From: Candidatus Bathyarchaeota archaeon A05DMB-4
Lineage (GTDB): Archaea > Thermoproteota > Bathyarchaeia > Bathyarchaeales > SOJC01
Direction of reading: 5' to 3'
DNA: 64,000 nucleotides
Assembly (NCBI GenBank): GCA_019685575.1
Contig: JABFQO010000003.1
Span: 1-64,000, forward strand
The notes below the pieces were generated by a model. It saw only the letters and a program-made list of their open reading frames with translations, made no database searches and was not told where the DNA came from. Positions 24,806 through 54,904 of this stretch are shown here, piece after piece (within the stretch, counting starts at the first letter, position 1; the number at the start of each line of letters is the position of its first letter). A program made the position numbers and the translations under genes.

Positions 24806-26347
24806 TCAGATGTCTTTCCGTTTTTTCAAGTACATTTTCCAACTTAAAGCCATACTCTGCGGGTGTGAAGCCTTGACCTCATCCAGCCTCGTGCAAGCAG
24901 TGTTCTGTGGCGCGTTTAAAACCAACTGCGGGTTCGAGTAGGCTTCTTGACTAATTTTTTTTACAGCATCAACGAATCTGTCGAGTTCTTCTTTTTCGAA
25001 GGATTCAGTCGGTTCAATCATCAACGCCTCGTCCACGATAAGTGGAAAGTAAGTGGTCGGCGCGTGGACACCATAGTCTAGTAGCCTCTTTGAAACATTT
25101 AACGCCTTAACCCCGGTTTCTTTCGCCATAGGCTTGGCGCTTATTACGCATTCGTGCTTGCGAGGCTTCTGTTTGTCGTATGGCAGTTCAAAACCGCGGA
25201 TTTCAGCCAGTTTTTTGGCTAGGTAGTTGGCGTTCAAAACAGAAACTTCGGCGACTTCTTGCAAGCCTTCAGCACCGAGGCTCAAAATATAAGCGTACGC
25301 GCGCACCAGCACTGCGATGTTGCCGTAAAAACTTCTAATCTTTCCTACGCTGTCGGGCTTGTTATAGTCCAAGAAATAGTCTTTACCGTCAAAACCGATA
25401 CGGGGCACAGGTAAGAACCTTTCCAATTCCTCAGAAACACCGACAGGCCCCGCGCCCGGTCCGCCTCCGCCGTGAGGGGTGCCGAAGGTTTTGTGAATGT
25501 TTATGTGTACAATGTCGAAGCCCATGTCACCGGGTCGGGTTTTGCCTAGTATCGCGTTAAGGTTGGCGCCGTCATAGTAGAGCAATCCGCCGGCTTCGTG
25601 CACTATTCGGGCGATTTCTTCAATATTTTTCTCGAAGATTCCCAGAGTATTCGGGTTAGTAAGCATCAGTCCCGCAGTGCGTTCGGAAACTACGGATTTT
25701 AAGGCTTCGATGTCAACGCAACCGTCGGCGTCAGAAGGCACGACTATCACGCGATATCCGCCCATGGTTGCACTCGCCGGGTTGGTTCCGTGTGCGGAGT
25801 CTGGAACAATTATTTCGCTCCGTTTCTTAAGTTCGCCATTTCTCTTGTGATAAGCCCGTATTATCAAAACGCCTAATAGTTCGCCGTGGGCACCAGCGGA
25901 AGGCTGAAGGCAAACCTCGTAAGTGCCTGTGATTTCGGCGAGCCATCTTGAAAGCGTGTACAATATTTGAAGAATTCCTTGAGTGGTTTGTGGGTCTTGG
26001 TACGGGTGGAGCAACGCGACGGTAGGAGATGTTGCCAATGCGTCGTTGATTTTCGGGTTATATTTCATTGTGCAACTGCCTAGCGGATAGAGGCCAGAAT
26101 CGACTCCATAGTTCATTTGTGACAAACGAATAAAGTGCCGTGTGACTTCGACTTCTGAAAGTTCGGGCAGTTTCGGCGGAGTTTCACGTTTCATCTTTTG
26201 TGGCATCAGTAATTGTACGTCGCCGATAACTTGTTTTATTTCTTCTTCGATTTCTGGTAATGCAAAGCCTCTTCGGTGAACTTTGCCTAACTCAAAAATA
26301 ATGGGTTCGTTCCATCTCGCTTGCCTAAAAGTCGACATTTTGCTCAC
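24806..26347 (-). CDS. gcvPB: glycine dehydrogenase (decarboxylating) subunit 2
   Basis: PLP half of the split glycine decarboxylase (P protein), which takes CO2 from glycine and passes the aminomethyl group to H protein. The PLP lysine is in HINIHKTFGTPHGGGGPGAG. 513 residues, normal. It follows gcvPA with a 4-base overlap. GcvT and GcvH are not in the window. Confidence 0.96.
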   Translation of the reverse strand: MSKMSTFRQARWNEPIIFELGKVHRRGFALPEIEEEIKQVIGDVQLLMPQKMKRETPPKLPELSEVEVTRHFIRLSQMNYGVDSGLYPLGSCTMKYNPKINDALATSPTVALLHPYQDPQTTQGILQILYTLSRWLAEITGTYEVCLQPSAGAHGELLGVLIIRAYHKRNGELKKRSEIIVPDSAHGTNPASATMGGYRVIVVPSDADGCVDIEALKSVVSERTAGLMLTNPNTLGIFEKNIEEIARIVHEAGGLLYYDGANLNAILGKTRPGDMGFDIVHINIHKTFGTPHGGGGPGAGPVGVSEELERFLPVPRIGFDGKDYFLDYNKPDSVGKIRSFYGNIAVLVRAYAYILSLGAEGLQEVAEVSVLNANYLAKKLAEIRGFELPYDKQKPRKHECVISAKPMAKETGVKALNVSKRLLDYGVHAPTTYFPLIVDEALMIEPTESFEKEELDRFVDAVKKISQEAYSNPQLVLNAPQNTACTRLDEVKASHPQSMALSWKMYLKKRKDI

Positions 26348-27741
26348 CTTTCCTTCAGAACCTCTTCTAAGGCTGTTGCGAGACGATCAATGTCATGCTT
26401 AGAGTGAACCTCGGTGACGCAGTAAAGCGCCGTGCCGCCTAGTTCAGGGAACTCCTTCGAAACATCTTTGCCACCGTGTACTCCATACAAAAGCAAGTCT
26501 TCATGAACGTGTTGAACGCTTTTTCCTGTATCGTCAAAGTTGACTGTGAACTCTTTAAAGTGTGGCGCATCGAAAATCGGCGTTTTAACGCCTTCAATCT
26601 TGGACAACTTCTTTATCGCGTAATCGGCTTTAATCATGCATGTCTCACCCAGTTCTTTCAAGCCTTGTGGACCGAGTAAAGCCAAATAAACCGCGGATGC
26701 CACGGCGCAGAGGGCTTCGTTAGAGCAGATGTTAGAAGTGGCTTTTTCTCGTCGTATATGCTGTTCACGTGTCTGTAGTGCCATACAGAAACCTCGCTTG
26801 GTTCCGTCTAGCGTGGTTGTTATGCCTATTGTCCGACCGGGCATCTGCCGAATCAACTCCATATCGCCACGACAAGCAAAAATTCCTAGTAATGGTCCGC
26901 CGAAATTCATGGCGATTCCGAGCGGTTGACCTTCGCCGACGACGATGTCTGCGCCGTATTCTCCTGGTGGTTTTATGATACCGAGAGAAACTGGGTCAAC
27001 GCCGACGATGAATAGTGCGCCTTTGTCGTGCGCGATTTGTGCAACTGCCTCTGCTTCGGTTTCTATAAAACCCAAGTAGGAGGGATTTTCCACGTAAACT
27101 GCTGCTGTTTGTGTTGAAATTTTTGTTTTCAGATCTTCGAGGTCTAATTGTCCAGTTGATTTATCATAATTTACGTGTTTTACTTGAACTTCTGCTGGTT
27201 CTACGTAGGTTTGGAGTGTCGCGTTTCTTTCTGGGTGGATAATTTTCGGAACCAGAATTTCTGAACGTTTCGTTATTCGCGCAACCATCCGTGCTGCTTC
27301 GCCTACCGCGGATGCCCAATCATACATGGAACAGTTGGCTACTTCCATGCCTGTCAACTCGCAGATCATGCTCTGGTATTCGAAAAGCGCCTGCAACATG
27401 CCTTGCGAGATTTCGGGTTGATACGGCGTGTAGGCTGTTAGCAGTTCACTTCGTAAGATGATGTTTTCCACAACCGCGGGCACGTAGTGCGGCCAGCAAC
27501 CCGCGCCTAAAAAAGTGGGCATTGTTGCTGAGGTTTTGTTTTTTGCAAGCAGATTTTCTACGTGTCGTTTTACTTCTGCTTCTGAGGAACCCTTGGGTAT
27601 GTTTAGTTTTTGTTTTAAGCGAAACTTTTCCGGTATGTCTCGGTATAGTTCGTCGATGTTTTGTATTCCAAGTTCTTTCATGAGTTCTTTTTTGGTTTCT
27701 TGAGCCGAATTGGGAATGTATGGATGACTGTGCCTTGGCAA
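26344..27741 (-). CDS. gcvPA: glycine dehydrogenase (decarboxylating) subunit 1
   Basis: Partner subunit of GcvPB, 465 residues. Family sequence is clear at FLGAGCWPHYVPAVVENI, TAYTPYQPEISQGMLQALFE and EGQPLGIAMNFGGPLLGIFA. The two genes overlap by 4 bases and form an operon transcribed away from the thioredoxin-like gene. The gap to that gene (27742-27874) shows no recognisable glycine riboswitch. Confidence 0.96.
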   Translation of the reverse strand: MPRHSHPYIPNSAQETKKELMKELGIQNIDELYRDIPEKFRLKQKLNIPKGSSEAEVKRHVENLLAKNKTSATMPTFLGAGCWPHYVPAVVENIILRSELLTAYTPYQPEISQGMLQALFEYQSMICELTGMEVANCSMYDWASAVGEAARMVARITKRSEILVPKIIHPERNATLQTYVEPAEVQVKHVNYDKSTGQLDLEDLKTKISTQTAAVYVENPSYLGFIETEAEAVAQIAHDKGALFIVGVDPVSLGIIKPPGEYGADIVVGEGQPLGIAMNFGGPLLGIFACRGDMELIRQMPGRTIGITTTLDGTKRGFCMALQTREQHIRREKATSNICSNEALCAVASAVYLALLGPQGLKELGETCMIKADYAIKKLSKIEGVKTPIFDAPHFKEFTVNFDDTGKSVQHVHEDLLLYGVHGGKDVSKEFPELGGTALYCVTEVHSKHDIDRLATALEEVLKER

Positions 27742-33092: not shown

Positions 33093-33890
33093 CTACCCTT
33101 TTCTTTTTTCTATTTTTTCTGTGCTTTTTCTTGCGTAAGTAATGTAACCCGTGTGGGCGGTCATCAAGGTTTCTGGCCGCGTTTTTCCTCTTTCCACTTG
33201 CATTCCCCGTAGGAGGCATTCGACGGTTTCGACGCCTATGAATTTGTTCTCTCTCAGGGCTTCGACGGTTTTGACAACTTGATCTATAGTCGGGCTGAAC
33301 GAGACAATCGTGCCGCTTCCTTTTAACGCGCGGTATGCGTGTGGCACGACGAGCCAAGGCGTTGCTAAGTCAAGAATTACAGCGTCGGCGTTTTTTTCGT
33401 CTATTTCTTGGGTTACGTCTTTATTTTTGATTTTCACAAACTTTTCCAAGCCTGCACGTTCAAGGTTTTTCTGGGCTGTTTGGATGAATTCTGGTCTGAT
33501 TTCGTAACTGTAGACCTTTCCCGTGGGTTTTATGTAGTGTGCAATTGCGGTGGTTAAAGCGCCCGTGCCTGTTCCCGCTTCGACTACTTTGCTGCCGGGT
33601 CCGATGCCGCTGAACATTATTATGAGGGCTATGTCTTTTGGATACATGATTTGGGTTTGGCGTTGGGTTTTGAAGATGTAGTCTCTGAGGGTGGGGTCTA
33701 GTGCGTAAAATTCTACGCCAGTGTTGCTTGCTATTGGTGTGCCGTATTCTTTGTCGATTAGGCTGTCGAGTTGCACAAAGCCCTTGTGAGTATGAAGACT
33801 CTTGCCCCTCTCTACTTTAACTAGATACGTGCGTCTTGGGGTAAGGTACAGCAGAACCTCGCTGCCTTCGGTTATTCTTTCTTTCTTCAA
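33093..33890 (-). CDS. trmI: tRNA (adenine-N1)-methyltransferase TrmI
   Basis: 265 residues. N-terminal beta domain (VLLYLTPRRTYLVKVERG), then SAM fold: IGPGSKVVEAGTGTGALTTA (motif I), YSYEIRPEFIQTAQKNLERA (motif II) and ADAVILDLATPW (motif IV). Archaeal TrmI methylates A57 and A58 in the tRNA T loop, complementing aTrm56, which is also in this window. Confidence 0.93.
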   Translation of the reverse strand: MKKERITEGSEVLLYLTPRRTYLVKVERGKSLHTHKGFVQLDSLIDKEYGTPIASNTGVEFYALDPTLRDYIFKTQRQTQIMYPKDIALIIMFSGIGPGSKVVEAGTGTGALTTAIAHYIKPTGKVYSYEIRPEFIQTAQKNLERAGLEKFVKIKNKDVTQEIDEKNADAVILDLATPWLVVPHAYRALKGSGTIVSFSPTIDQVVKTVEALRENKFIGVETVECLLRGMQVERGKTRPETLMTAHTGYITYARKSTEKIEKRKG

Positions 33891-33900
33891 CCTTGGCTCA

Positions 33901-35379
33901 CTATGGCGTGTATTTGAACGGATGCTTGGCTCGGTCTTTGTTTTCTATTATCTCGTCAGCTGTTGGGCGGCCTTCGATGGCTCGGCGGATGGCGTGGCGC
34001 ATGGCTTTATAGTTGTTGATGTAAACCCGTTGTCGGTCGACGGCGGATGGGTGCACGAACACGTTGGCGATTATGATGAGATCGTCTGCGGCGGCTTTCG
34101 GAATTGTGCCGTCGGCGAGGCTGTCGGCTACGGCTTTGGCTACTGCGGTTTGTGCTGGTCCGTACACCATGCTGGCTTGTCGCATGTTGCGGATGGTAAC
34201 GGTGGGGACGATGAGGGTTTCGGGCTTGACTTTTAGGTTGGGTTCAAGTATGGCTTCGAGGGGTTCGTGTCCTTGTGTAGGTGTGGCGCGGGCTTTCGCG
34301 TAGGCTTCGGCGAGTGGGCCGTTTTTTGTGCCTATCATCAAACCAATATGCGCGACTTCTGAACCCCCTCCCGCCAGTGCTTCGCCGATTTTCAGTTTGA
34401 AGTCACGGATGATTTCGGGCGTGACGTCAATGGCTCGGAACTGTTCGGTTATGGCTTTCTTTTCGATTTCGAACTTGACGGGCTTGGGCTGGATTTTGCC
34501 GATTTTCTCCAAGTCTAAGCGTAGTTCTTCGCGTTCTTCATAAGTGAGTTCGCCACCGACGCTGAGGGGAAGCCTAACGGGACCGACTTTGAAGCCCATC
34601 ATGTTCAAGGCTTCTTTTGTGCCGACGGGTCCGCTTTTGGCTGTGATGCGGGCGATTTTTTGTATTTTGTACTGTATTTCTCGGGCTTGTTGGAGTTCGT
34701 TTTTTTGGATGTGGTTGTAGATTTTCACCCATAAATCTGGGATGAAGTTGGCGCTGGCTAGAATTGCGCCTGATGCGCCTGCTGCTAGGGCTGCGGTTAC
34801 TACTTCATCATGTCCGCATAAGACGTTGATTTTGTCCCTGACTTTTTCGAGCACGGCGAGTATGAAGCTGAGTTGTCCGCTGCTGTCCTTAACGCCTACT
34901 ATGTTGGGGATTTGTGCCAAGTCTTCGACCATCTGCCACGGAAGGGCTAAGCCTGTGCATTGGGGAATGTTGTAGAGGATTATGGGCAAGTCCACTTTAG
35001 ACGCGATGGTGTCGTAATGTTCATAGATGCCGCGGTCGGTGGGCTTCAAATAATAAGGCGTGACAATAAGTGCCGCGTCAGCACCTGCATTCTTGGCGTA
35101 TTGCGTCATTTCTAACGCTTCTGCCGTGTTGGATGCACCCGTGCCCGCGACCACTTTGACCTTATGGTTGGCTTCGTCGACTACGATGTCTATTACGCGT
35201 TTTCTTTCTTCAATTGTCATGTTGACGAATTCGCCCGTGGTGCCGCAGGGAACGAGCCCGCTGACGCCTTGGTCGATACAATGATTAACCAGCATGCGAA
35301 GTTGCGGTTCGTCCACTTCTTTGCCGTCCTCAGTAAAAGGTGTAACAAGGGCGGGCATAATACCCGTGGGTTTAAACAT
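33901..35379 (-). CDS. DapA-family aldolase fused to formaldehyde-activating enzyme (Fae)
   Basis: 492 residues from ATG 35379 (AGAGGT ribosome-binding site ahead; the frame opens at 35400). Numbered from 35400: residues 8-305 are a class I aldolase of the DapA/NAL superfamily, with GTTGE 53-57, Tyr143 and Schiff-base Lys171 (VGVKDSSG). At YNIPQCTG the arginine of dihydrodipicolinate synthase (YNxPxRTG) is missing, so lysine synthesis is unlikely. Residues 336-485 are a complete Fae domain: GEALAGGGSEVAHIGLMIG with catalytic His351, VTIRNMRQASMVYGPAQ, ADDLIIIANVFVHPSA. Fae condenses formaldehyde with tetrahydromethanopterin. Fusion suggests that formaldehyde released by a retro-aldol reaction is captured at once (inference). 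Confidence 0.9.
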   Translation of the reverse strand: MFKPTGIMPALVTPFTEDGKEVDEPQLRMLVNHCIDQGVSGLVPCGTTGEFVNMTIEERKRVIDIVVDEANHKVKVVAGTGASNTAEALEMTQYAKNAGADAALIVTPYYLKPTDRGIYEHYDTIASKVDLPIILYNIPQCTGLALPWQMVEDLAQIPNIVGVKDSSGQLSFILAVLEKVRDKINVLCGHDEVVTAALAAGASGAILASANFIPDLWVKIYNHIQKNELQQAREIQYKIQKIARITAKSGPVGTKEALNMMGFKVGPVRLPLSVGGELTYEEREELRLDLEKIGKIQPKPVKFEIEKKAITEQFRAIDVTPEIIRDFKLKIGEALAGGGSEVAHIGLMIGTKNGPLAEAYAKARATPTQGHEPLEAILEPNLKVKPETLIVPTVTIRNMRQASMVYGPAQTAVAKAVADSLADGTIPKAAADDLIIIANVFVHPSAVDRQRVYINNYKAMRHAIRRAIEGRPTADEIIENKDRAKHPFKYTP

Positions 35380-35381
35380 GT

Positions 35382-35411
35382 TATGATTACCTCTGTGCAT
35401 ACAGAATCATA
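35382..35411. promoter_or_regulatory. palindrome at the predicted start site of the aldolase-Fae gene
   Basis: TATGATT (35382-35388) and AATCATA (35405-35411) enclose CTGT-GCAT-ACAG (35393-35404). It lies between the TATA-like TTTTAAAT (about 35421-35428, minus strand) and the ATG at 35379. It could be an operator, or a 5' hairpin that hides the ribosome-binding site. Confidence 0.4.
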
Positions 35412-35478
35412 AAAACGACAATTTAAAACCTATTATGGCGGGTCATAGAACTGTGATGTTTGATGGGAAAAGTCTTAT

Positions 35479-36819
35479 GTGAATGAAAACTTAAAGAGAA
35501 ACATCTATCCAATTCGTGGAGAATTGTCACCTATGCCAGACATCAGAGAAAAATTGCGAATTAACGAGGAAAACCTGAAGGCGGTTAATGATTTTCTTCT
35601 CAAAAAAGACAATCCCCTTGTAAACAATTTGCTCAAAATTATAGACAAATATGGTGGCTTGCAGGAAATCAACCGCAAAGCGCGAGCATGCTGCAAACTC
35701 GAAGCCTTCATGAAAAGACTGGAAAAGAAAAAATCACCCTTCCTAAAAGACCTTGAATGGCTCGTCAAGCAACGCGACGAAGGCGCCTTCATCACGATTC
35801 CAGAATACCGACGCAAGATTTTGGGCAAAAAAGCTGGTTCTATGAGTTTTGACGAGTCCTTCGCTGTTACTCTCGAAATCAGCGCCTTCAATTTCTTCCC
35901 GTGGCTTGTTGAAGAAGCCAAAAAAAGCATAAAAAATCAAGAACTCATGCCCGCCCGCTATATCCGCGTCCGCAACATGAAGGAACAAGTCGAAGACGAC
36001 GACCTCCTCGCCACCCAAGCAGCCATGCAAATCATAGGTGCCTCTTTCGTAGAAACTTTGGACACGAAGGGCACGATGCCCGGACCCGACGGCGCACCCA
36101 TCAACGTGCACTTGGGCGGGCCAGACACTATCACGGGCTATTTTGGCGGTGTGGGTGTGCCTAATGATTACGCCTTAAAGTGGGTTGAGGAGTATCTGCA
36201 TTATTACACGGAATACGGCGTCCGCCAAGTCCTCAACGTTAACGCTGGAACTATACTTCTGGGCTACATGCTTCACAAACTGGGCATAGACATCGAATTC
36301 AAAATCAGCGTGTACATGGGCAACGACAACCCCTACAATATACTTTGGACGCTTATGACCGCCAAACTCTTCAGTCGACCCGACGGCACCACGCCCTTAA
36401 TCGGCTTCAACTTGTCCAACAGCGCCAACAACGAAACCATCGAGTTGGCGGCGTACATCCGCAAGCCGTGGGGTTTCGAAGACATCGTTCGCATCGAGCA
36501 TCACATCACCGAAGCCTACAAAAGCATAGTCCGCCAGCCCTACAACCGCCAACCCGAACTCCTCGCTCTCGCCGACCATGTTAAGAACATCAGCGCCAAA
36601 CACGAGGGCGGCTTACCCGAAACCGAACGTAAACGCGACCACCCGAGCGACATACTCGACTACTTCATGCCCAAAAAAGACATCATCGAAAAAGGCTTAA
36701 TGCCCAAACTATTACAGAACTACCTTGACAAACACGACGCCCTCAACAAAACCGCAGAGATGCTCACCAAAAAGGGCTTAACCTTCATCGCAGCACGAAA
36801 CCTACACAAAACAAAATAG
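35479..36819 (+). CDS. conserved protein of unknown function, divergent from aldolase-Fae
   Basis: 446 residues from GTG 35479, or 428 from ATG 35533 with GGAG ahead of it. I do not recognise the family. A helical N-terminal part (residues 20-130, with a Cys pair RACCKLEA) precedes a part with alternating strands and helices that could be a TIM barrel. Marked motifs are NVHLGGPDTITGYFGGVGVP, LNVNAGTILLGYML, VYMGNDNPYN and IGFNLSNSANNETIELAAYI, which look like an active site with several Asn and His. No membrane segment. The divergent layout suggests shared control with the aldolase-Fae gene. Confidence 0.75.
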   Translation: MNENLKRNIYPIRGELSPMPDIREKLRINEENLKAVNDFLLKKDNPLVNNLLKIIDKYGGLQEINRKARACCKLEAFMKRLEKKKSPFLKDLEWLVKQRDEGAFITIPEYRRKILGKKAGSMSFDESFAVTLEISAFNFFPWLVEEAKKSIKNQELMPARYIRVRNMKEQVEDDDLLATQAAMQIIGASFVETLDTKGTMPGPDGAPINVHLGGPDTITGYFGGVGVPNDYALKWVEEYLHYYTEYGVRQVLNVNAGTILLGYMLHKLGIDIEFKISVYMGNDNPYNILWTLMTAKLFSRPDGTTPLIGFNLSNSANNETIELAAYIRKPWGFEDIVRIEHHITEAYKSIVRQPYNRQPELLALADHVKNISAKHEGGLPETERKRDHPSDILDYFMPKKDIIEKGLMPKLLQNYLDKHDALNKTAEMLTKKGLTFIAARNLHKTK

Positions 36820-37141: not shown

Positions 37142-38560
37142 CTACAATTCATACTCAACGGCTTCTTTGACAAGCCTTATGCTACGAAGTTTACGGCAAA
37201 ACAGTCGAGGATGTTCGGTGTGAACCGGGAAAATGGTTTTCGGCTTAATCTGCCTTGCCAAGTCAATCAGTTCTTCTCCGCAAGCGTGTCCAGAACAGTG
37301 ACTTTGAAACATCCTTAACTTGAAATGCTGTAGCCAATTCCTCAATCGCTTAAAGTCAACCCGCATTTCCTCGTTGAAGGGCTCACTCAAAGAGTGAATG
37401 AAAAGGCTGCCGTCCTCAGGTTTGATGTCAATTAACTCGTTGAAGTTGTAGAAACTCAAAACCGAAATTACGCGCTTCTGGTTTTTTCTAATCTTTTCCG
37501 CTGTCCATGAATTGTTTAGGTTGAGGAATTGGCGCTCGTTGACGCTGTAGTCGTTTTCTCGGTACGTGCCCGTACCTCGTTTCGGGATGTGAATAATGAT
37601 GTCTTCATCCGAATAGCTTGGAACGTTCAGTTTCGGATCTCGGCTAAGCCACTTTAACATAAACGCGTCTTTCAGTGAAACAACCAATTTTCGACTATTT
37701 GACCTTGCGATCTCGAAAAACGTTCGAAGTCTGTCGACGTCTTTAAAGTTGAAATCAGCCACGACAAACTTATCCGTCTTCGCAACAGCATTGTTGCATT
37801 CTTTTTTTACCTTGTCTTCACTTGAGGGTTCATGCGAAACATCGATTCTTGTCCCTTCTACTATCAGAGCAGCCGGTTCAGAGGCTTTGGCGCGTTCAAT
37901 AAACTCTCGTGTCATTTTTGGCTTTGTGCCGTGCATCCTCAAATCGCCAGTATAAACCACTGCGCCCCGGCTTGTATGAACGATGAAACCGTAGGCGCCG
38001 GGTACGGAATGGTCAACGTGGACGGGTTCAATCTCTAACGTGCCGATTTTGATTTTCGCGCCTGTTCGGAAGGGTTTGAATGTTCTTTTCACGGGTTCTT
38101 CTTTTTTGCTCTCGACGGGGCGTCTTTTGAAGTCTATTATTTCGTATTCCATGCTTCGTGTTCCGCTTTCAGCTGCCGCGTTGAGCATTAAAAACGCAGT
38201 TTCGCCCAAGTATATTGGAATCTCTTCGTGCAGAAAAGATATGTAGTTGGCGTGGTCTGCATGTGCATGGGTTAAGAAGACGGCGTCGATTTTTGGTTTC
38301 TGTTTTTTCATTCCGCACATCGCTAACAGGTCTTCTCGGTAGATTCCGTCAACGTTTGGAAGCAGACCCATTTCGATAAAGTCGCCGAGTCCGCATGCAC
38401 TCCGCGGAGACAAAAACTCGTCATAAAAGATGCTTCTTTTTCCAAAACTCAACCCAAAATCAAGAAAAACACGTGCATCGCCGTCTTGGAGAAGGATTTT
38501 GTTCCCGCCGATTTCGTTGACCCCACCGTAGAACGTGAGGCTTGTCTTATTCTTCACCAT
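37142..38560 (-). CDS. RNase J-like metallo-beta-lactamase nuclease
   Basis: 472 residues. The MBL metal site is HAHADH (FLTHAHADHANY), with VHVDHSVPGAYGF and VVYTGDLRMHG further on; the beta-CASP motifs include ALIVEGTRID and the C-terminal FQSHCSGHA and FPVHTEH. The start TFYGGVNEIGGNKILL is typical of RNase J/CPSF-like enzymes. Likely RNA decay or processing. It starts 2 bases after the end of the nucleotidyltransferase-kinase gene. Confidence 0.88.
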   Translation of the reverse strand: MVKNKTSLTFYGGVNEIGGNKILLQDGDARVFLDFGLSFGKRSIFYDEFLSPRSACGLGDFIEMGLLPNVDGIYREDLLAMCGMKKQKPKIDAVFLTHAHADHANYISFLHEEIPIYLGETAFLMLNAAAESGTRSMEYEIIDFKRRPVESKKEEPVKRTFKPFRTGAKIKIGTLEIEPVHVDHSVPGAYGFIVHTSRGAVVYTGDLRMHGTKPKMTREFIERAKASEPAALIVEGTRIDVSHEPSSEDKVKKECNNAVAKTDKFVVADFNFKDVDRLRTFFEIARSNSRKLVVSLKDAFMLKWLSRDPKLNVPSYSDEDIIIHIPKRGTGTYRENDYSVNERQFLNLNNSWTAEKIRKNQKRVISVLSFYNFNELIDIKPEDGSLFIHSLSEPFNEEMRVDFKRLRNWLQHFKLRMFQSHCSGHACGEELIDLARQIKPKTIFPVHTEHPRLFCRKLRSIRLVKEAVEYEL

Positions 38561-38561
38561 G

Positions 38562-40256
38562 CTATCGCCTCGCTCGAGTGCCCACTTTTCTACAGATGCT
38601 TGAGATCGTAAAAATAACCTGTGGTGGGGTAAATATGGCGAAGACTTTCGTGTACTGTGCTGACCATGCCTTTTTTATTGTTTCCGTTTTTCCTCCCCCT
38701 TGCAGGTAACCTTCGATAAAGGCGTTAGCGATTAACTCTGCCGCGTTCGTGTTTGCGAGAGGTGAAACGTAATGTCCCGAATAATAAAGAAACTCTGCGA
38801 TGTCCCATGCTTGGTTCCCGTTTCTGGTTGCTTGCTCCAAATCAAGAAACACTGGCTCGCCGTCTTTTGTGATTACAATGTTTTCCGGTTTACAATCACC
38901 CAGCGCAACTCCAAGCGCGTGTGCTTTGGCCATTTTTTCGCCTATTTTTCTGACGGTTGCCAAGTCTTTTTCATTTTTGTTTTCGGAAGTTACGATTTTT
39001 TTAATTATTTTTGTCATGCTGGTGCCTTCGACGTATTCTTTGAAGATTAGGCGTTGCTGTGGGCTTACGTGCAGAATTTTGGGCACTGCAAAATTGTTTT
39101 GGCTTAGGAACTGGTTAATCGCATATTCTCTTTCCAATCGTGTCTGCCCGAGCACGGCGAACGAATGCGTGCCCAACGTCCAAAAAGCCAAGGGAAACCA
39201 TTTAAACGCAAACCAATCCTTGAATTTCTTAACAGCGATTCTCTGTTTTTGTCCATTCTTCTCAAAGCTAACCAGATAAACCGTGTTCAAAACTCCGCCT
39301 AAACGTTTTAGTTCCATTCTTGTTGTTCCTTCGCGGGGGGCAAGTTTACACACAAAATCTTCAATGCCAGTAGTGTCGGAGAAAGAAACCAACCCGTACG
39401 GTGTAGGAACAAGCAAGAATCTCTGCGAAGCATTCAACTGAAAAACCAATCTCTCTTCAGCCGCTTGCTTATGCGTTTTGAAGTAAAGTTCTTGGTCTTC
39501 TAAGATGGGGCGGATAACGCCGGGAAACGTTCGGAGCAGATACATCAATAGTCCTCTTTGTATTGTGCGGAATAATGCGAGAAGCCGGATGCGGCGTTTA
39601 TTCACTTTTTTGATGAAAGTTTTGTTTATTTTGATCGTTCCTTTGGCGAGGGTTATCCAGCCTTCTTCTGCTAATTGGTCGAGGGCTATTGTGTATCCTT
39701 TCATCACGCGTTCGGTGTTGCGTTTTCTTAGGTCACTTCTGAACGTGTTGAGAAAAGTGTAGGTCATCAACGGAAACAAGCGGGCTTTCCGCGCCATGTC
39801 CTCGTACATAAAGTACTTCGGTTTCAACACAAACTCGTACGACATTTCCGGGTATTCTAATACAAGGTTTTCCAGAAGTTCCCATATGACTCTCTTTTTC
39901 AGTTTGACCTCTTGAAATTGGAGGTAATCGGGGTTGATTATGGGTTTATAGGGGAGCATGATTTTTTCAGCCACGAATTCGCCTATGATTCCTTGTTGTA
40001 TGTCTGCCTCGAAAAGTCCAGAATCTACGACGAAGAAGAAGACGTTGACATCGTTTAGCATTTTGGGGTACACCATAAGTCGCGACGGATAATTCTTCAC
40101 TATCAACAAAACATCGATGTCGCTTTTCTCGGTTCCGTAGCCGCTGGCCCGTGCGCCAAAGACACAAGCGCTGACGATTTCGCGGGTTCGGGCAATCTGT
40201 CTGCATAAGTTCAAAATCTGTTCTTGTTGTTGGGAGTGTATGGTTTGGTTTTCCAA
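38562..40256 (-). CDS. nucleotidyltransferase-kinase fusion protein
   Basis: 564 residues. N-terminal domain (about 15-95) is a minimal nucleotidyltransferase: ACVFGARASGYGTEKSDIDVLLI holds the GS-like turn and DxD metal site. A middle helical and winged-helix-like region (110-280) has many basic residues. The C-terminal domain (290-540) is a RIO/Bud32-like kinase with RIAVKKFKDW (ATP-binding Lys), EYVEGTSM, GDCKPENIVITKDG (catalytic loop) and VFLDLEQA (metal Asp). It could nucleotidylate or phosphorylate RNA or protein. Encoded directly before RNase J. Confidence 0.8.
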   Translation of the reverse strand: MENQTIHSQQQEQILNLCRQIARTREIVSACVFGARASGYGTEKSDIDVLLIVKNYPSRLMVYPKMLNDVNVFFFVVDSGLFEADIQQGIIGEFVAEKIMLPYKPIINPDYLQFQEVKLKKRVIWELLENLVLEYPEMSYEFVLKPKYFMYEDMARKARLFPLMTYTFLNTFRSDLRKRNTERVMKGYTIALDQLAEEGWITLAKGTIKINKTFIKKVNKRRIRLLALFRTIQRGLLMYLLRTFPGVIRPILEDQELYFKTHKQAAEERLVFQLNASQRFLLVPTPYGLVSFSDTTGIEDFVCKLAPREGTTRMELKRLGGVLNTVYLVSFEKNGQKQRIAVKKFKDWFAFKWFPLAFWTLGTHSFAVLGQTRLEREYAINQFLSQNNFAVPKILHVSPQQRLIFKEYVEGTSMTKIIKKIVTSENKNEKDLATVRKIGEKMAKAHALGVALGDCKPENIVITKDGEPVFLDLEQATRNGNQAWDIAEFLYYSGHYVSPLANTNAAELIANAFIEGYLQGGGKTETIKKAWSAQYTKVFAIFTPPQVIFTISSICRKVGTRARR

Positions 40257-53797: not shown

Positions 53798-54904
53798 TTG
53801 GGCATCCAAAGAATAGAAGTTTACGAAGTTACGCTACGTTACAAAGAACCTTTCGTCATTTCAGCAGGCACAAGCACCGAAAACCGTAACACCCTCGTGA
53901 AAATAATCACGGACTATGACGTTTTTGGTTGGGGAGAAGCCTCGCCCTCCAAACGAGTCACGAATGAAACCCCCGAAACAATACTCAAAACGCTCGACAA
54001 GATTGGTCCTCGCTTGATCGGCATGTGTCCGCTCCGCATCGCACAAGACGTTGACCTCATGGACGCCATAGTTGCGCATAATCCAAGCGCGAAAGCGGCA
54101 ATCGACCTTGCGTTGCATGATGTTCTCGGCAAAACCGCGCGCAAACCAACATGGCGGCTGTTGGGAGGGTTCCGAGAAAGAGTCTTGACTGACATTACGT
54201 TGAGCATTAAATCGCCCAATGAAATGGCAAAGGATGCTGTGAAGGCGGTTAAGATGGGGTTTAAGGCGTTGAAGGTGAAAGTCGGCGTAAACCCGAAAGA
54301 GGATGTAGAAAGAATCAAACTCATCCGCGAAGCAGTGGAACCTAAGATTGCGGTTCGCATAGACGCTAACCAAGGCTGGACAGTAACCCAAGCCATAGAC
54401 GCTCTCAAAAAACTGGACAAATTTCACATAGAATTCGTTGAACAACCCACAGACGCAAAAAACACTCGAGGCTTAGCAAAAGTTAGAAAAGAATCGCCCG
54501 TCTCCATCATGGCGGACGAAAGCGTGCACTCGCCAGCCGATGCACTGCAACTTATCAAAGCAAACGCGGTGGACATGATTAACATCAAACTCATGAAAAG
54601 CGGAGGCATCCACAACGCCCGAAAAATAGCTCACATAGCCGAAGCAGCAAACATGCCATGCATGATAGGATGCATGGGCGAGTCCACAGTCGGCATAACC
54701 GCAGCCGTCCATTTCGCCGCAGCTACTAAGAACGTGCAGTACGCTGATTTAGACTGTGACATTTTGTTAGCCGACAAACTGGTCTCTAAGGGCGGGGCTG
54801 TAGTGAAAGATTCTGAAAGGATACCGGGCGACGAGGCTGGCTACGGCATAACGGAGTTGGATGAAACGCTTTTGAGGAAGCCCGTGAGAGTTTATGGAAA
54901 ATAG
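53798..54904 (+). CDS. enolase-superfamily dipeptide epimerase
   Basis: 368 residues, TTG start. Catalytic lysines in KALKVKVG and INIKLMKSGG, metal ligands in VRIDANQG, EFVEQP and IMADESVHS; DLDCDILLADKLV near the C-terminus is typical of L-Ala-D/L-Glu epimerases. May recycle cell-wall-like or other dipeptides; muconate-lactonising enzymes share this fold. Confidence 0.85.
   Translation: MGIQRIEVYEVTLRYKEPFVISAGTSTENRNTLVKIITDYDVFGWGEASPSKRVTNETPETILKTLDKIGPRLIGMCPLRIAQDVDLMDAIVAHNPSAKAAIDLALHDVLGKTARKPTWRLLGGFRERVLTDITLSIKSPNEMAKDAVKAVKMGFKALKVKVGVNPKEDVERIKLIREAVEPKIAVRIDANQGWTVTQAIDALKKLDKFHIEFVEQPTDAKNTRGLAKVRKESPVSIMADESVHSPADALQLIKANAVDMINIKLMKSGGIHNARKIAHIAEAANMPCMIGCMGESTVGITAAVHFAAATKNVQYADLDCDILLADKLVSKGGAVVKDSERIPGDEAGYGITELDETLLRKPVRVYGK

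Follow-up and report, generated by a model that had tools for sequence, protein, structure and literature searches.

A gene in which a DapA-family class I aldolase is joined to a formaldehyde-activating enzyme (Fae) domain was identified in the window, i.e. the whole stretch of 64,000 nucleotides of Candidatus Bathyarchaeota archaeon A05DMB-4 that was used for the analysis. DapA-Fae is a conserved and apparently unreported fusion, and it follows the known logic of tying Fae to an aldolase that makes formaldehyde. Our preferred reading, with a probability of about one half, is that the protein is a pyruvate/4-hydroxy-2-oxobutanoate aldolase coupled to Fae and that it more likely acts in the direction of cleavage; we infer the substrate, the direction, the role of formaldehyde, the activity of the Fae half and the channelling from sequence and gene context.

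The fusion gene and its distribution

The fusion gene is located at positions 33901-35400 on the minus strand and consists of a single open reading frame of 499 amino acids, with the aldolase preceding Fae and with zero internal stops. Its first ATG lies at 35400, so that the end given in the earlier note (35411) is 11 bases past the ATG; comparison with homologues indicates that the true start is the second methionine (Met8, MFKP...), at about 35379. The PF00701 (DHDPS) match covers residues 11-298 (34507-35370, minus strand; E 8.3e-85, profile positions 2-287 of 289) and the PF08714 (Fae) match covers residues 338-495 (33916-34389, minus strand; E 5e-60, profile positions 1-158 of 159). The gap between the two Pfam matches, residues 299-337 (34390-34506, minus strand), represents the inter-domain linker. 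Both halves also score above the NCBIfam cut-offs (dapA TIGR00674, 264 against a cut-off of 206; one_C_fae TIGR03126, 214.9 against 118), and zero matches to PF00215, the Hps/OMPdecase family, were found within the fusion protein. The earlier note described one frame joining a class I aldolase to Fae, and this description is borne out by two near full-length Pfam domains without an internal stop; the aldolase features that it named (Lys171, GTTGE and YNIPQCTG) are all present.

The fusion gene is followed, 10 bp downstream, by a tRNA methyltransferase gene of the GCD14/TrmI family (33093-33890, minus strand). On its other side lies a divergent partner gene, c1 (35479-36819, plus strand), whose conserved part begins at about 35533. 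Judging from the coordinates, the stretch between the two genes (35380-35532) presumably serves as a shared promoter region.

The earlier note proposed a search for proteins with PF00701 and PF08714 in this order, and the architecture was recovered in 61 distinct sequences, with identity down to about 50% and all from Bathyarchaeia where labelled; the architectures of the relatives were read from fetched genomic regions. In the order and family of the window's genome, 61 genomes were examined; a Fae domain was found in 42 and the DapA-Fae fusion in 22. A scan of GTDB contigs yielded some 40 fusion loci, mostly at 50-80% identity and nearly all labelled Bathyarchaeota. When 250 genomes were sampled from the phylum, complete fusions were confined to the same class, including two families beyond the order, and none was found outside the class Bathyarchaeia. 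Class-wide regions revealed the fusion in three further families (G307, G413 and G453). Overall, the halves remain joined in every genome sampled, a range of about ten groups at family level within one class; among plasmid records, none spans both halves.

A frameshift or misassembly merging two genes, named in the earlier note as what would refute the reading, has a negligible probability. The architecture is repeated in 61 distinct sequences from independent genomes, several of the fusion-bearing assemblies are single-contig chromosomes that were assembled independently, and support for an artefact was looked for and none was found. Since conserved homologues exist in independently assembled genomes, chance or assembly error is excluded.

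Analysis of the aldolase half

Comparison of the 61 distinct fusions with E. coli DHDPS revealed that the Schiff-base Lys171 (K161), Tyr143 (Y133), Tyr117 (Y107) and Thr55 (T45) are present in all of them and Thr54 (T44) in 60. Position 148, equivalent to R138 of the E. coli enzyme, is occupied by C/V/A/L in 61 of 61 fusions (Cys148 in the window) and never by arginine, in agreement with the earlier note, which had reported this arginine missing from the aldolase half. The arginine, whose role in DHDPS is to bind aspartate semialdehyde, is retained by two archaeal relatives that stand alone and by DapA of M. jannaschii. If the aldehyde substrate carries no carboxylate, it would not require this arginine.

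The NCBIfam dapA match implies a lysine-pathway dihydrodipicolinate synthase to which an unrelated Fae domain has been appended. The score over the TIGR00674 cut-off fits this assignment, the nearest solved structures by sequence are DHDPS (2yxg, E 1e-59), and a full-length TIM-barrel profile, a Schiff-base lysine and the catalytic Tyr/Thr residues place the protein in the DHDPS/NAL superfamily. However, the R138 equivalent is absent in 61 of 61 fusions, and DapB was found above cut-off in 0 of 22 fusion genomes compared with 26 of 39 others. Because of the lost arginine and the absence of DapB from 22 of 22 fusion genomes, a DHDPS role is very improbable, the annotation is very likely wrong and we reject this identity. 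The non-DHDPS role anticipated in the earlier note is thereby strengthened. The fusion is the sole PF00701 protein in the window's genome.

Analysis of the Fae half

For the Fae domain we take the ligand site to be that of the M. extorquens structure (Asp19, Leu48, Lys66, Thr68 and Gln83, with His17 as the catalytic residue). The catalytic histidine, His351 in the window, is kept in 58 of 59 fusion Fae domains, as is Gln83 (58/59), followed by Asp19 (55/59) and Thr68 (50/59). The Lys66 position is occupied by threonine in 58 fusions and by serine in one, compared with lysine in all 31 Fae-Hps domains; as this change is clade-wide, caution is needed against presuming ordinary Fae activity. The window copy differs further and is alone among the 59 in having AHIG for AHID (Gly353, GGT codon, window 34342-34350) and glutamic acid at the Leu48 position, so that this Fae half is possibly impaired, or else the sequence contains an error. 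The complete Fae domain with His351 described in the earlier note is thus full length with its histidine kept, but its ligand-site residues are partly changed. Overall, the Fae half is a conserved, full-length family with an altered ligand site, whose pterin binding or rate may differ from the usual.

When a Fae tree was rooted on the M. extorquens sequence, DapA-Fae and Fae-Hps domains separated into two clades, with support of 0.83 and 0.97 respectively, which makes the former an old, distinct Fae lineage. The window's genome also encodes a separate Fae-Hps on another contig. The Fae-Hps proteins of some Bathyarchaeia (L001:1222-2682, L003, L012 and L031) carry an additional N-terminal region of about 85-115 amino acids. 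Its helix-turn-helix matches (HTH_29, HTH_28 and HTH_23) are weak and all under the Pfam cut-off, but they suggest that the extension may bind DNA or have a regulatory role. At another locus (L240:3195-6099), two tandem DapA-Fae fusions adjoin a c17 gene and the Fae half of the second is without the AHID motif.

The altered ligand site bears on a different reading of the protein, namely a KDG-type aldolase for longer sugar acids whose Fae half scavenges or senses formaldehyde made elsewhere, or is degenerating. In its favour are the replacement of the ligand-site lysine throughout, the two further changes in the window copy, the AHID-less member of the tandem pair, and a stand-alone aldolase relative (L207) found near a mandelate-racemase-like gene and an AOR gene, i.e. 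near sugar-acid-type genes. The conservation of the histidine and glutamine (58/59 each) and of the aspartic acid (55/59) at the Fae site speaks against it, the halves are joined in all genomes sampled, and a scavenger would need no fusion to a pyruvate aldolase. We consider this reading possible but rather unlikely.

Partner families and gene neighbourhood

The c1 gene encodes 446 amino acids and belongs to a strongly conserved family, for which zero Pfam, NCBIfam or PDB sequence matches were found. Of 46 loci, 33 have a member of the c1 family close to the fusion; in a distant locus (L086) it lies downstream of the fusion on the same strand. In the fusion genomes that are without c1 (G015, G022 and G048), a gene of 310 amino acids, c17, lies directly upstream of the fusion. 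Taken together, c1 or c17 is present in 22 of 22 fusion genomes compared with 2 of 39 others (Fisher 1e-14, uncorrected for relatedness). Comparison of c1 with c17 by hhalign gave 74%, with the families aligning across most of c17. The predicted model of c1 is a TIM barrel whose best fold matches have a TM below 0.55, none of them close; the predicted model of c17 is likewise a TIM barrel (pLDDT 86), with class II aldolases as best matches (TM about 0.5). Relatives of c17 on bacterial plasmids are labelled 'U32 family peptidase', and the neighbourhood of the Thermomicrobium roseum relative includes genes for a sugar ABC transporter and for a member of the mandelate-racemase family. In G021 (L138), c1 is divergent from nrdR/nrdD-like genes instead of the fusion.

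In two distant lineages, L082 (on the same contig as L241, G307) and L255 (G453), a UxaA-type dehydratase (PF04295 and PF20629) and a SAF-type subunit are encoded next to the fusion but on the other strand; L255 additionally has an adjoining fragment of the LarA (lactate-racemase) family, and there c17 follows the fusion. This neighbour is confined to the two lineages, and none was found near the window's fusion. UxaA-type dehydratases convert sugar acids to 2-keto-3-deoxy acids, which are the usual substrates of DapA-family aldolases. Only from a C4 acid would the released aldehyde be formaldehyde, the substrate of Fae. G028, a fusion-less genome, has c17, a second PanB paralogue and a class I/II aminotransferase in that order (L125:9686-12806). 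The reaction of PanB is the transfer of a hydroxymethyl group between a tetrahydropterin and a 2-oxo acid. The gene context, with UxaA beside the fusion and a PanB paralogue in its place, points to 2-oxo-acid and hydroxymethyl chemistry.

Among other neighbours, several fusion loci include a nearby AOR gene, and the GCD14/TrmI-family tRNA methyltransferase, a neighbour in 27 of 46 loci, is probably a housekeeping gene outside the pathway. Two candidate pathway genes were rejected: the mandelate-racemase-like gene at window positions 53798-54901, considered as a sugar-acid dehydratase, scores best as a dipeptide epimerase, and a PALP gene downstream of the fusion (L075/L076), considered as a threonine synthase, reads as the serine/threonine dehydratase type.

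Further genes were observed around the fusions. A window gene at 38562-40256 encodes 564 amino acids with a nucleotidyltransferase-like match at the N-terminus and a Bud32/Kdo-type kinase-like match at the C-terminus; it adjoins a gene for an RNase J-like protein (37142-38560), and the pair is near the fusion in many relatives. About 6 kb from the fusion, the window contains split glycine decarboxylase genes, gcvPA and gcvPB (24806-27741); glycine decarboxylase is another supply of C1 units on tetrahydropterin. Near a distant fusion (G201, L205:7848-9728), genes for a DUF39-like protein and a NIL/ferredoxin protein, recognised by eye, resemble the aspartate-semialdehyde-dependent homocysteine system.

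Proposed reaction

In the preferred reading, the N-terminal class I pyruvate aldolase would act reversibly on 4-hydroxy-2-oxobutanoate (HOB), the 2-keto-3-deoxy acid derived from a C4 sugar acid, splitting it into pyruvate and formaldehyde or forming it from them, and the C-terminal Fae would condense the formaldehyde reversibly with tetrahydromethanopterin (H4MPT) to methylene-H4MPT. The net reaction would be HOB + H4MPT = pyruvate + methylene-H4MPT + H2O, and formaldehyde would be kept on or near a single protein and never set free, as in Fae-Hps. Formaldehyde is a plausible intermediate common to both halves. Fae is a pentamer and DapA-family enzymes are usually tetramers, so that the assembly of the fusion is not obvious.

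In the upstream step, a dehydratase would convert a C4 sugar acid, for example erythronate or threonate, to HOB, which the fusion would then split; the pyruvate would enter fermentation and the C1 units the H4MPT branch. This would amount to a naturally occurring C4 version of the non-phosphorylative Entner-Doudoroff pathway, in which a UxaA-type enzyme converts a tetronate to HOB and the fusion splits HOB and loads its formaldehyde directly onto tetrahydromethanopterin. We put this route forward tentatively, with clearly less than even odds.

Alternatively, the fusion may run in the building direction, with Fae freeing formaldehyde from methylene-H4MPT and the aldolase adding it to pyruvate to give HOB, which would be transaminated to homoserine in place of the homoserine dehydrogenase route. 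Homoserine dehydrogenase was found in 0 of 22 fusion genomes compared with 31 of 39 other relatives, and within families f4, f6 and f7 it and the fusion are mutually exclusive. The order c17, PanB paralogue, aminotransferase in G028 would also suit such a route, and engineered E. coli makes homoserine in the same way (PMC8879981). On the other hand, the true threonine synthase (above 300 bits, sitting with homoserine dehydrogenase) is also missing from the fusion genomes, the window's genome has only a 35-bit partial match to it, and G028 itself carries homoserine dehydrogenase. DapB is lost too, so the whole aspartate family seems lost, a pattern that auxotrophy would also explain. Given these further absences, replacement of homoserine dehydrogenase was demoted to an alternative that we regard as unlikely, and cleavage is preferred with moderate confidence, since the pattern may just mark aspartate-family loss.

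Across the 61 relatives, no fusion genome has homoserine dehydrogenase, the threonine synthase that accompanies it or DapB, which may reflect loss of the aspartate family or the presence of unrecognised substitutes.

The fusion could also act as an alternative ketopantoate hydroxymethyltransferase for coenzyme A, in place of PanB, as might be read from the position of c17 beside a PanB paralogue in G028 and from the lack of PanB in the window's genome. That genome, however, is also without phosphopantothenate synthetase, and PanB is present in 10 of 22 fusion genomes compared with 4 of 39 others, so this replacement is unsupported by co-occurrence. DapA-family Schiff bases form with pyruvate and not with branched 2-oxo acids, which also counts against a PanB-like role. 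We rejected it as very unlikely.

The retro-aldol interpretation of the earlier note is supported in part: the genuine fusion, the arginine loss, the non-DHDPS role and the plausibility of formaldehyde all stand, and the cleavage activity itself is what we infer.

Anoxic sediments are rich in Bathyarchaeia, of which almost none have been cultured. If the preferred reading is true, a fused pyruvate-formaldehyde aldolase would give C1 units a new way into or out of the one-carbon pathway of these archaea, and Fae would have become tied in evolution to a formaldehyde-making aldolase for a second, independent time, the first being Fae-Hps. The fusion would also be a natural enzyme for the pyruvate plus formaldehyde step, for which synthetic methylotrophy now borrows promiscuous aldolases. 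If the C4 route is true, sugar-acid breakdown would be linked to the methyl branch of the archaeal Wood-Ljungdahl pathway, and HOB would be a natural intermediate, although a review on formaldehyde metabolism (PMC8879981) classes it as non-native.

Comparison with known systems

A search of openly accessible published papers found no mention of a DapA-Fae fusion, and an earlier mention is possible. Fae/Hps appears in a survey of fused archaeal proteins (PMC11237513), from which DapA and formaldehyde are absent.

DapA-Fae resembles Fae-Hps in coupling Fae to an aldolase that produces or consumes formaldehyde (presumably, in the case of DapA-Fae), and both fusion types occur in the same genomes. 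Unlike Fae-Hps, DapA-Fae has the aldolase first, its partner is a Schiff-base pyruvate aldolase and not a member of the Hps/OMPdecase family, and its Fae domains form a separate clade with the ligand-site lysine changed to threonine. The E. coli 2-keto-3-deoxy-D-xylonate aldolases YagE and YjhH are likewise DapA-family class I pyruvate aldolases, and they are among the pyruvate aldolases deleted to block the splitting of HOB to pyruvate and formaldehyde (PMC13279387); however, these enzymes are stand-alone proteins without Fae and their HOB activity is promiscuous. DHDPS (DapA) has the fold and the Schiff-base catalysis in common with the fusion and provides its nearest structures by sequence, but Arg138 is lost in all 61 fusions and DapB is absent from the fusion genomes. 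PanB carries out an equivalent hydroxymethyl transfer between a 2-oxo acid and tetrahydropterin, and a PanB paralogue replaces the fusion beside c17 in G028; PanB is nevertheless unrelated in sequence, metal-dependent and without a separate Fae domain.
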